A stretch of DNA of 64,000 bases from contig NZ_MKKC01000068.1 of NCBI RefSeq assembly GCF_001942255.1, positions 1 through 64,000 on the forward strand, written 5' to 3'. The stretch is from Nocardiopsis sp. CNR-923 (GTDB lineage Bacteria > Actinomycetota > Actinomycetes > Streptosporangiales > Streptosporangiaceae). The notes beneath the pieces were generated by a model, which worked only from the letters and a program-made list of their open reading frames with translations, was not told the DNA's origin and ran no database searches. Positions 1,495 through 5,614 of this stretch are shown here, piece after piece (position 1 is the stretch's first letter; every line of letters begins with the position of its first letter). The position numbers and the translations under genes were made by a program.

Positions 1495-4408
1495 GTGCCG
1501 GACGTGATTTGCCATGGGGGCGGGGAACTGAGCGAGAGCACACACGGCGAGGGCGGGGCGGATGGACAGCGTCCTGAGACCGACACGCCGGAGACGAGAA
1601 CCTCTGCCGAAGAGCTGTCCAACGAGGCGACCTCGGAGAGCGGAGTACCCGCTGCCGGGGAGGACCAACCTTCCCCGGACGTAGCGGAACCCGAGTACGA
1701 GCCCGGAGTCTTCAAGACCAGCGGGTCCTTCCTGCGTGAGCGAGTCGCACAGACCCTCCAGGACCAGGGCTTCGGACCGTCCGGGCGCGACGCCGACTCC
1801 TCCCCCTCGGAGCGCTCCGAGGGGGAGGAGTCGGCGCCCTCCGAGACCGGGAGTGTCGCGGCCGACACGTCGGAGTCCGAGGAGACTGAGAGCACCGTCG
1901 CCGGCGCCGCCGGCGACCAGGTGCGTTCGGTGTCCCCGCCGTCCCCCGCGCAGGCTCCGAACGCCGACAACGACGCGTCGTCCTCGGGGGAACCCCCCTG
2001 CTCCGAGGAACCCCCGTCCTCCGAGGAGACCGCGTCCGAGGCCCAGCCCCCCACGCGCCCCTTCTCCCCGGTGGTGGAGGACGACTCGATGTGGCCGTCC
2101 CCCCAGCGGATGTCGACCATGGCGTTCCCGCCCCCGAGCGAGGCCGGCGGTCACGCGCCGAGCCAGGCCGGGTCCGGGGCCCCGGACCAGGGCCCTGCCC
2201 AGGCTGACGGTCGGGGCCCGACCGCCGAGGCGCGGCCGGCGCCGTCGTCACGAAGAACGGGCCCAAGGCGGCCGGGAAGGCAGGAAGAGCGGGAGGGCTC
2301 CGCTGTGGTGGCGGATCCTGCGGGTGTGCCTGGTGGTCGCCGGTGTCGCGGTCATCGCCGGGTGCGGCGTGTTCGCCTACTTCTACTCCACGGTCGAGGT
2401 CCCCGACGCGGCCCAGGCGGACGCGGTCGAGCAGGGCTCCACCTTCTATTTCGCCGACGGCGAGACGATGTTCGCCGAGCGCGGCACCCACCGGGAGATC
2501 ATCTCCTACGACGACATGACCGCCGGCGGTGACCACGTCGTCGAGGCCGTCATCTCTGCCGAGGACCGCGGCTTCTGGACGGAGCCGGGCGTCTCCGTGC
2601 GCGGCACCACGCGCGCGGTCTGGTCCACCATCACCGGTCAGCAGGTCCAGGGCGGTTCCACCGTCACACAGCAGATGGTCCGCAACTACTTCGAGGGTGT
2701 CTCCAACGACCGGACGATCTCCCGGAAGGTGCAGGAGATCATCATCGCCATCAAGATCGACCAGAGCCAGTCGAAGGAGTGGGTGATGGAGCAGTATCTC
2801 AACACCATCTACTTCGGCCGTCAGGCGTACGGGATCCAGGCGGCGGCGGAGGCCTACTACCACAAGGACGTGGACGAGCTCACTCCTGAGGAGGCGGCCT
2901 TCCTGGCCGCGGCCATCCAGCAGCCGACGCCCTTCGGCCAGGCGAACGTGGAGACCACGCCCGAGATGGAGCAGCGCTGGCAGTACGTCGTCGACGGCAT
3001 GGTCACGACCGGGGCGATCACCCAGTCCGACGCCGACGCGATGGAGTTCCCCGAGCCCGAGCCCGAGCGTCCGGGCGCCGGTGCCGATCTGAGCGGCTAC
3101 CGGGGCTACATGCTCCAGGAGGCCATGAACGAGCTCGACCGGCTCGGCTTCACCGAGGACATGATCAACCGGCAGGGCTACCGGATCGTCACCACCTTCG
3201 ACGAGGACAAGATGGAGGCCGCCTACCAGGCGGTCGAGGACACCGTGTCCCAGGACGACCTCCCCGAGGGCGTCAACATCGGTATCAGCACCGTCGACCC
3301 GGCGACCGGTGAGGTCGTCGCGTTCTACGGCGGGCACGACTACAACGCGAACCAATACGACAGCTCGTTCCTGGGCCGGGCCCAGGCCGGGTCGGCGTTC
3401 AAGCCGTACGTGCTGGCGACCGCGCTGGAGCAGGGCATCGGCCTGCACACGACCGTGGACGGTCGCGGTCCGCAGAACATCAACGGAAGCCGGATCCAGA
3501 ACCCGGGCGATGCGCCCGGCGGCATCATGTCGCTCCTCCAGGCGACAGAGGTCTCCAACAACCTCGGCTACATCGAACTCGCCCAGCGGGTGGGCTTCGA
3601 CGAGGTCCGCCAGACCGCCTACGACATGGGCTGGCCCGAGGGAAGCATCGGCGACGACCAGCTCGTGCCCGTCATGCCGCTGGGGGCGGCCAGCGTCCGT
3701 CCCATCGACCAGGCCAGCGGGTACGGGACGTTCGCCAACGGCGGTGTGCACGTCGAGGCGCACGTCGTCCGGGAGATCGTCAACACCGAGGGCGAGAACG
3801 AGCGACCGGAGCCGGAGAGCAGCCGGGCCCTGGCGGAGTCCACGGCCTCGGACGTCACCCACGCCCTTCAGCAGGTGGTCAGCAGCGGTACCGGTACGGC
3901 CGCCAACCTGTGGGGCCACCCCACGGCGGGCAAGACGGGCACCACCAACGACAGCGTCGCCGCCTGGTTCGTCGGGTACACGCCCCAACTGGCGACGTCG
4001 GTGGGCGTGTACAACGAGAGCAACCAGAGCTTCAGCATTCCCGGCCAGAACATCTCCGGCGGCGGCATGCCCGCCCAGCTCTGGAACCGGTACATGTCCG
4101 CGGTGATGGAGGACTACGAGCCGGGCAGCTTCCCGAGCCCGGATTTCGCCGGCAGCAGCGAGAACTGGGCGCCCGTGGTGCCTCCCGAGGAGCCCGACAC
4201 ACCGGTCGAGGACGCGCCGCCGGTCACGGAGGTGCCCGAGGCTCCGGAGTTCCCGGAGTTCCCGGTCGAACCCGTCGAGCCCAATCCGGAGATCCCGGTC
4301 GAACCCGTCGAGCCGGATCAGGAACAACCCGGTGAGCCGGGCGGCCCGGGCGGTCCGGGCGGCCCAGGCGGCACGGACGTGCCGCCCGGCCGCGGTGAGG
4401 GCGAATAG
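1495..4408 (+). CDS. Class A penicillin-binding protein (transglycosylase/transpeptidase), frame broken twice
   Basis: It polymerises and cross-links peptidoglycan at the outer face of the membrane. An acidic, Ser/Glu/Pro-rich cytoplasmic tail of about 270 residues precedes a membrane segment near 275-298. The GT51 domain shows AEDRGFW and QGGSTVTQQMV. The transpeptidase domain shows SAFK (nucleophile Ser), SNN and KTGTT in order. A Pro/Glu-rich tail ends the protein. Frame changes near 2245 and 2295 each look like one missing base: the middle frame reads VVTKNGPKAAGKAGR, a plausible basic linker before the membrane segment. The GTG at 1495 is the likely start, though its ribosome-binding site is weak. 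Confidence 0.9.
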
Positions 4409-4412
4409 ACGG

Positions 4413-4550
4413 GGCCCCGCACCGCCACGACGCCGTTGAACTGCTCCCTGGAAGTTGGACTGGAGATCCAGTTCCATCGACCAGGGAGCAGTCCCATGAG
4501 AGCGAACAGCTCGCTCAGCCAAGACCAACGCCACGACGCGGTGCGGGGCC
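4413..4550. terminator. Convergent terminator hairpin split by an insertion
   Basis: GGCCCCGCACCGC (4413-4425) and GCGGTGCGGGGCC (4538-4550) are perfect 13-bp complements but lie 112 bases apart. Removing one copy of the 11-bp direct repeat plus the sequence between leaves a compact hairpin with the six-base loop CACGAC between the convergent PBP and prenyltransferase-like genes. Compact GC-rich hairpins of the same kind occupy two other convergent junctions here (28261-28299 and 40245-40276), which supports this reading. Confidence 0.7.
4434..4539. mobile_element. Small structured insertion with 11-bp direct repeats
   Basis: CGCCACGACGC occurs at 4423-4433 and again at 4529-4539, flanking 95 bases that interrupt the loop of an otherwise perfect terminator. 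The inserted part contains a strong hairpin: CTGCTCCCTGG (4441-4451) with CCAGGGAGCAG (4481-4491), and inner arms TGGACTGGA and TCCAGTTCCA. A second small hairpin GAGCGA/TCGCTC lies at 4500-4516. From the ATG at 4496 an open frame runs rightward (MRANSSLSQDQRH), so it may be the 5' edge of a lost transposase gene. No transposase domain is present. A MITE, an IS remnant or a REP-like element are all possible. Confidence 0.55.
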
Positions 4551-4573
4551 TCGCCCGTGCCGCGGGTGCGCCC

Positions 4574-5614
4574 CTACACGCCGTCCCAGGTGTGCAGGAA
4601 GACGCGTGACCCGTCGGTCGTGCCGCTCAGGGCGTCCACCGCGAGGATCACCGCGGCCGACGTCCACGTGCTGCGCTCCACCGGCCAGCGCACGTCCTCG
4701 GCGAACTGGTAGCCGGTCCAGAAGGCGCCGTCCTCGGCGTCCCGCAGGTGCTGGACGTCGGCCAGGACACGTGTCCCGGCCTCGCGCTCGCCCATGGCCG
4801 CCAGGGCCAGGACCAGCTCGGCGGACTCCGCGGCGGTCACCCACGGCTGGTCGCTCACGCACCGCACGCCCAGGCCCGGGACGACGAACCGCTCCCACCG
4901 GTCCTGGAGGCGTTCCTTGGCGGCCACTCCGCGCACGGCGCCGCCGAGGATCGGGTAGAACCAGTCCATCGAGAACCGGCTCCGGTCCGCGAACAGGTCC
5001 TCGCGGTCGTTGATGAGCGTCTCCAGCCGGTCGGCGGCCGAGGTCCACGCCGGCCGCTCGCGGCCCAGCCGTGCGCCGAGGGCGGCGCCGCAGCGCAGGG
5101 CGTGGTGGACGCTCGAACACACCGTGAGCAGCGCGTGGTCGCCGGGGGAGCCGTCCTCCGACCGCGCCCACAGGATCTCCCCGTGTTCGCCGCGCAGGCC
5201 GAGCACGAAGTCCAGCCCGCTCTCCACCACCGGCCAGGTCCGTTCGGCGAACGCCGCGTCACCGGTGACCAGCAGGTGGTGCAGGAGCCCGACCGCCGGG
5301 TAGGCGGCGTGGTTGGCCTCGCGCAGGTCGGTGACGGGCGCGCCCTGGCGGAACTTGGCGGGCCAGCCTCCGTCCGCGTGGCGGCTCCGCGCCAGCCATA
5401 GGTAGGCGCGGCGGGCCGCCTCGGCGTGCGCGGGCACGGTGCGTCCGGTCACGGTCAGCGCCATGGCGCACTCGACGTGGTCCCACACGTCGGTGTGGCC
5501 GCCGGGGAACCAGGGGATCGCGCCGTCCGGCTCCTGCGCGCGCACCAGGTAGTCGGCGGAGCGCAGGACCTGGTCGGCGGTCAGGACCTCGGGCAGAGCG
5601 GGTGCGGCGCCCAT
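4574..5614 (-). CDS. Prenyltransferase/terpenoid-cyclase-fold protein (alpha/alpha toroid)
   Basis: The product has 346 residues built of repeated helical units, such as LRSADYLVRAQEPDGAIPWF near the N-terminus and later AYLWLARSRHADGGWP. The Q-x-x-DGAIPW and DGGWP patterns are those of squalene-cyclase/prenyltransferase repeats. I see no DxDD motif, so true cyclase activity is doubtful. Its ATG overlaps the TGA of the upstream methyltransferase (ATGA), so translation is probably coupled. It is the last gene of a glycosyltransferase-methyltransferase-toroid set, a combination often seen together in actinobacteria; the pathway is not known to me. Confidence 0.75.
   Translation of the reverse strand: MGAAPALPEVLTADQVLRSADYLVRAQEPDGAIPWFPGGHTDVWDHVECAMALTVTGRTVPAHAEAARRAYLWLARSRHADGGWPAKFRQGAPVTDLREANHAAYPAVGLLHHLLVTGDAAFAERTWPVVESGLDFVLGLRGEHGEILWARSEDGSPGDHALLTVCSSVHHALRCGAALGARLGRERPAWTSAADRLETLINDREDLFADRSRFSMDWFYPILGGAVRGVAAKERLQDRWERFVVPGLGVRCVSDQPWVTAAESAELVLALAAMGEREAGTRVLADVQHLRDAEDGAFWTGYQFAEDVRWPVERSTWTSAAVILAVDALSGTTDGSRVFLHTWDGV

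Follow-up and report, generated by a model that had tools for sequence, protein, structure and literature searches.

Several insertion sequences (ISs) use hairpins as targets. IS1397, ISKpn1, and ISPsy8 are IS3-family elements that insert into REP palindromes; ISPsy8 produces a 3-bp repeat and is located on the axis of symmetry of what is probably a hairpin (PMC1525189). IS1272 and TnSha1, of the IS1182 family, also insert into hairpins, and five of seven sites were confirmed as terminators by RNA-seq (PMC4923244). Rho-independent terminators are the homing sites of group IIC (bacterial class C) introns (PMC3522654).

The insert described here lies between two genes in the window (the whole 64,000-nt stretch of Nocardiopsis sp. 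CNR-923 DNA that was analysed) and is almost certainly a dead left-end relic of an IS3-family IS that prefers terminator-like hairpins. This reading draws on the identity of the left end, the transposase family, ends, and 3-bp duplications of the parent IS, the hairpin flanks of many copies, and the uninterrupted hairpin in relatives. IS1397, ISKpn1, and ISPsy8 share with the Nocardiopsis IS an IS3-family transposase and a palindromic target (ISPsy8 also the 3-bp repeat), but their targets are one repeated REP sequence, whereas the actinomycete targets of the Nocardiopsis IS are terminator-like hairpins that differ from one another, many of them having a GGCCCC core. IS1272 and TnSha1 are alike in inserting into hairpins, but they have a transposase of another family and insert bluntly, with part of the stem deleted and no target duplication, whereas most two-ended copies of the Nocardiopsis IS carry 3-bp duplications (12/15). 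Group IIC introns are a different kind of element altogether, a retroelement that inserts downstream of the hairpin. Hairpin targeting by ISs is already known (IS1397, ISPsy8, IS1272); the Nocardiopsis IS is a variant of it, in which an IS3-type 3-bp duplication goes together with terminator-like targets. In titles and the openings of abstracts, among the matches listed, no IS3-family element targeting terminators was named (subscription papers and ISfinder were outside the scope), and a literature search pairing Nocardiopsis with the IS3 family found nothing.

The Insert and Its Host Hairpin

The features of the site are as follows.

1736..4408, + strand: penicillin-binding protein (PBP) gene (transglycosylase and transpeptidase), an ORF with an uncertain start codon
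4410..4425, no strand: left arm of the terminator-like hairpin (inverted-repeat search), with a compact hairpin likewise present there in 38 of the 40 genomes of the genus
4423..4433, + strand: left copy of CGCCACGACGC, target sequence (direct-repeat search), which with the next 3 bases reaches the insertion point
4437..4534, + strand: relic, nt 1–98 of a 1431-bp IS3-family IS, 95.9% identical to the copy at locus L003
4440..4492, no strand: IS left-end palindrome (arms 4440–4459 and 4473–4492), which includes the left inverted repeat as well as a Shine-Dalgarno-like motif, AGGGAG (4483–4488)
4496..4534, + strand: first 13 codons of IS orfA (ATG at 4496); in L003, the OrfA start lies at IS nt 60
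4529..4539, + strand: right copy of CGCCACGACGC, of which 4529–4534 (CGCCAC) is IS-native and 4535–4539 is target sequence
4538..4553, no strand: right arm of the terminator-like hairpin (inverted-repeat search)
4577..5614, − strand: convergent gene, an ORF with a squalene-hopene-cyclase-like match below curated cut-offs

The PBP gene matches Pfam Transgly (6.6e-53) and Transpeptidase (1.4e-29), both over 2003–4405, and its stop codon ends 1 base ahead of the hairpin. The genes flanking the hairpin are convergent, as the original prediction had it and as the ORFs and domain matches bear out. The hairpin arms that it placed 112 bases apart are present as 16-nt arms with 94% complementarity. The 156-base stretch has a predicted fold 8.3 sd below dinucleotide shuffles (z −8.3), in which the outer arms pair around the insert. 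A terminator role of the hairpin is suggested by the structure and its position, and in this model of the fold the site may still act as a terminator, since the arms can pair around the insert.

The insert is a left-end IS relic, a dead copy and not a working element. Positions 4437–4534 align with nt 1–98 of the L003 IS copy over all 98 bp (95.9% identity). The unit starts at 4437 (TGAACTG...), where 4434 had been given before, and its IS-derived part ends near 4534, within the right repeat copy. The inner hairpin was correctly foreseen (4440–4459/4473–4492), and the open frame noted as reaching out to the right is real, but it is the start of IS orfA (ATG 4496) continuing into flanking DNA. 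Because the relic has no transposase and only one end, it is not expected to move by itself.

Further copies in the same genome are not supported: the left end occurs there once, and a second search row is a self-match of the palindrome. Outside the window, at G000:C63:77791-77859 (L143), lies a right-end-like fragment with an OrfB tail, from an IS3 element that is related at about 80% identity; it is the only other trace of the IS family seen in this genome by the searches made. Distant blastn of the 156 bases against plasmid and phage sequences gave no match. In Rfam the window stretch had a single match, to an animal microRNA family (E 0.44, far below the gathering score), which is taken as chance.

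The Parent IS

A full-length IS with these ends, which the original prediction had suggested looking for in the same genome, was found in relatives: the congeneric genomes G007 and G015 carry six copies each. The ends are TGAACTGCTCCC and GGGGACCAGTTCA, 1431 bp apart, and give the terminal repeats TG...CA (TGAACTGCTCCC... / ...GGGGACCAGTTCA) that, with a 3–4 bp duplication, characterize the IS3 family. OrfB of the L003 copy matches the NCBIfam IS3 family NF033516 (7.2e-97; score 324.9 against a cut-off of 160) and contains rve, rve_2, rve_3, and HTH_21 domains, including the integrase-like rve/DDE core of the IS3 type. OrfA (160 aa) has a helix-turn-helix domain, HTH_Tnp_1; OrfB lies in another, overlapping frame, and joining of the two by frameshift is only putative. 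The six G015 copies are identical over 1431 bp, and in both genomes the IS, with several full copies each, looks recently active.

Left-end matches at E ≤ 0.001 occur in 23 of 100 relatives and 19 of 40 genus genomes, and at family level in 26 of 298 genomes and 7 of 68 genera (own genome counted in each case). In L010 and L130, which belong to different genera, homology to the IS stops at nt 643, and in L010 it resumes at nt 1106; the two may share a common internally deleted form. Another IS copy (L048; G007:C1, near 1169689) is broken at IS nt 202 by an element with an IS3-like transposase.

Target Preference

Fifteen two-ended copies were examined: six of seven in G007, six in G015, one in G036, and two in G031, one of which is internally deleted (972 bp). 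Left ends (L005, L008/L042, L027, L035/L064) and right ends (L111, L114, L120, L122) at contig ends were excluded. Also set aside, before the counts of 15 two-ended and 26 left-end-only copies, were copies with interruptions (L048, L029/L141), elements that carry a transposase but are partial or diverged (L013, L023, L130), duplicates of a single place (e.g., L033, L066, L067, L038, L043), 59/60-bp palindromes (L015, L031, L059), and two-ended internal deletions (L056, L061, L138).

The target duplication is 3 bp in 12 of the 15 two-ended copies and 4 bp in a thirteenth. An inverted repeat scoring at least 9 lies within 30 bases in 8/15, compared with 1.4% of 4000 random window positions, a lenient control, and with 18% of 3800 positions located 1–100 behind the PBP gene in the 38 genomes with an empty site (one-sided binomial against the latter, 0.002). 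The contrast falls from 53% vs. 1.4% to 53% vs. 18%; because the stricter control gives 18%, part of it reflects a preference for gene ends, yet an excess remains. All eight target hairpins contain GGCCC, and seven contain GGCCCC. No score-9 inverted repeat lies within 30 bases of the other seven copies, two of which (L004 and L030) also have no duplication of 3 bp or longer; these copies count against the preference. The IS tends to insert in, or a few bases from, the loop of GC-rich terminator-like hairpins, in agreement with the preference for hairpin loops suggested from the window alone.

More distant IS3-family elements with similar ends occur in Arthrobacter, Pseudarthrobacter, Corynebacterium, and a Nocardiaceae bin, and similar left ends in Kribbella; OrfA and OrfB homologues are present in L150, L157, and L172. 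The full 1431 bp (100%) could be aligned, at 68.8%, with the Arthrobacter plasmid p232. In Pseudarthrobacter (L172), the copy lies within a 20-bp inverted repeat and shows a 3-bp duplication. The Nocardiaceae and Corynebacterium elements show no duplication and score only 7, a value reached by 15% of random positions at these flank lengths. At the four Kribbella loci the sequence ends 127 to 458 bases after the match start, with no transposase seen there, and two of them (L151, L177) look by eye to be adjacent to a hairpin, not inside it.

Empty and Filled Orthologous Sites

The stretch behind the PBP gene was read in all 40 genus genomes, with an automatic search for hairpins scoring at least 8 with a loop of up to 14. 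This search was positive in 39/40; the hairpin in G037 is part of an insert, which leaves an uninterrupted hairpin in 38/40 and only the window and G037 as filled sites. Empty sites, the evidence from relatives that the original prediction had called for, are the rule in the genus. Their hairpins score 10 or more in 36 of 38 cases, against 2.5% of 1000 random 135-base stretches (9.9% of which reach 8 or more). Deletion of the insert and one repeat had been predicted to restore a compact hairpin, and it yields a 16-bp stem (one G-U pair) with a 6-base loop at −38.6 kcal/mol; 300 random joins gave −17.6 kcal/mol (sd 4.6, best −32.2).

In G037 the site is filled by a palindromic derivative of 59 bp, oriented as in the window and almost identically placed. 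G026, whose protein tail is similar to that of G037, has an empty site. The two fillings are presumed to be independent events. In G037 (L015, 1484–1556), GGACCAGTTCA and 3 bases stand ahead of the 59-bp palindrome, so that a tip resembling the right end is followed, after 3 bases, by a start resembling the left end; the layout is like, suggestively at most, that of the right end abutting the left end in an IS circle. The same 59 bp is also present in G030 (L031).

The Repeat and Its Junction

The two copies of CGCCACGACGC (4423–4433 and 4529–4539) are spaced by 106. The 11-bp direct repeat reported around the insert is thus present, and a shared word of 11 or more occurred in 0 of 3000 random pairs of same-size window stretches. 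The right copy joins IS-derived CGCCAC to target-derived GACGC: at the repeat point the IS sequence of the G015 copies is CCAACGCCAC, and CGCCAC lies within the IS sequence CCAACGCCACCAAGCG. The left copy with its next 3 bases (13/14 alike) runs exactly to the insertion point.

The repeat is not a target duplication of this IS, because CGCCAC in the right copy is IS sequence and a repeat of this sort, longer than 7, is absent from all 24 of the other left-end-only copies compared (L045, with 65 bases after its start, was left out). Its interpretation as a mark of insertion fails on the same count and on the 3-bp duplication of the family; the expectation of many copies flanked by 11-bp repeats was right about the copies, left ends being common in relatives, but not about the repeats. 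With 0/24 the window junction is an individual case. The same junction pattern had 0 matches in genome contigs of other species, and, as a point against the proposed origin, no strain with a full-length IS at the site of the window was found in these contigs.

The repeat is best read as the probable scar of a template switch or microhomology event, as suggested by this one junction. An IS copy would once have inserted into the hairpin's right arm, following ...CGCCACGACGC(G/C)GT, and its first 98 nt alone would remain. Copying or repair may have left the IS at CGCCAC and resumed at the matching CGCCAC of the target, an event that would produce the 11-bp repeat and an intact right arm; alternatively, IS-bearing and empty alleles may have recombined at CGCCAC. 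The junction pattern, CGCCAC followed by target and a left copy that extends up to the insertion point, would be expected from either event.

Left-End and Right-End Relics

The 26 left-end-only copies comprise 24 in the genus and 2 in other genera, and one of them (L045) stops at a contig end. Flanking inverted repeats score at least 9 in 7/26 (1.8% of random positions), at least 8 in 11/26 (4.9%), and at least 7 in 12/26 (14.6%), which leaves 14/26 with no clear right arm. A right arm begins 0–5 bases past the relic in L009, L047, L062, and L063, and 3 bases past it in the window. The three two-ended internal deletions (L056, L061, L138) all lie in hairpins. Right-end-only copies in the genus number five (L137, L139, L143, L144, L145), three of which (L139, L143, L145) are weak and include a palindrome at IS 1346–1383.

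The genus has 24 left-end-only relics against 5 right-end-only relics (two-sided binomial 0.0005), a ratio that is biased upward, and partly a detection effect, because the left end is better conserved than the right between two IS types (39 bases at 90%) and so is easier to detect. When the second, more diverged IS served as the query for both ends, further right-end-like pieces came to light (L144, L145; G001 and G005), together with left-end pieces (L146–L148; G009, G011, and G036) that are outside the 26. The left excess could stem from abortive one-ended integration, selection on the palindrome, or better detectability of left ends.

Two side observations concern these relics. L065 (G020:C28, 72817 and 77200) holds a pair of left ends, separated by 4.4 kb, that have a 60-base left flank in common (L028, L008), one being truncated and the other running off the contig; the pair is either a duplication or an assembly effect. 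L019, L045, and L046 are relics seemingly behind the same gene in three species, with the same words before the stop codon by eye, and would be an old, inherited relic.

A full-length copy might simply have inserted and then lost IS nt 99 to the right end, with some flank, by deletion; in the repeat, 5 target bases would have matched by chance, extended by 6 IS bases. This course of events is a serious possibility, if somewhat short of probable: full copies with duplications exist, as do the three two-ended internal deletions, and the 14/26 left-end-only copies scoring below 7 are what deletions would leave. It leaves the 11-bp repeat to chance (0/3000), however, and random deletion does not predict the 24 to 5 left bias unless right ends are harder to detect; the four relics (L009, L047, L062, L063) that keep a right arm within 5 bases also speak against it.

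More tentatively, and with considerable doubt, abortive one-ended integration of the IS3 lineage may give rise to copies in terminators that are anchored on the left and truncated on the right. The left end would be joined to the target and copied inward until copying stalled at the strong left palindrome, followed by a microhomology jump back.

The Left-End Palindrome

Across 27 distinct left ends, 93.9% of the cells of the 19 pairs are kept. Cells changed on both sides number 24, compared with 8.2 in shuffles that ignore relatedness. Neither the pairs with double-sided change (5 vs. 3.2, reached by 33/500 shuffles) nor the further pair types (12 vs. 11.2, reached by 185/500) are striking. 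The palindrome is present in full-length IS copies, and its right arm contains AGGGAG, 7 bases ahead of the orfA ATG. Because the right arm holds this putative ribosome site, read-through transcripts would be predicted to hide it. IS10, IS50, and IS200 are controlled by hiding the ribosome site in read-through transcripts. Control of this kind is also known for ISPpu9.

Retention of the palindrome by co-option, for example as a stronger terminator, would allow left ends to persist where right ends do not. The left-end excess, the palindrome kept by the relics in the alignment, and the relics seemingly behind one gene in three species fit this proposal, but we consider it unlikely: the IS end itself keeps the palindrome, conservation before relic formation can explain the pairing, and several relics are cut inside it (L047, L060, L062).

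The original prediction of a MITE or IS remnant holds for the IS remnant, with 98 bp at 95.9% identity to the IS left end; a two-ended MITE with 11-bp target duplications is rejected as extremely improbable, for although direct repeats flank the insert, no right end lies within 1624 bases (score 11, against 12 for the best of 100 random stretches), no 3-bp duplication, the family's length, bounds the unit, 0/24 other left-end-only copies have such a repeat, and half of the repeat's right copy comes from the IS. There is likewise very little to be said for the whole 138 bases as a conserved host structured RNA or long terminator, in spite of the very stable fold (z −8.3) and paired palindrome columns that vary together: the stretch is not one conserved unit but absent at 38/40 orthologous sites, which contradicts this reading, the palindrome belongs to the IS end and occurs in full-length copies, and the single Rfam match is far under its gathering score.

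Implications for the IS3 Lineage

The dead left-end relic in the window belongs to an IS3 lineage of Nocardiopsis that has relatives in other actinomycetes and for which intergenic terminator-like hairpins are a frequent landing site. Hairpin targeting, known from REP sequences for the IS3 family and from staphylococcal hairpins for the IS1182 family, is extended by this lineage, and G007 and G015, with several full copies, would offer a direct experimental system. If abortive integration were true, the relics would form a class of their own among insertion products instead of being full copies in decay, comparable to the 5′-truncated copies of LINE retrotransposons, which are insertion products, and the repeat in the window would be where the jump shows most clearly. 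The left-end-only excess, if upheld by an unbiased count, would bear on how copy-out-paste-in elements finish or fail integration.
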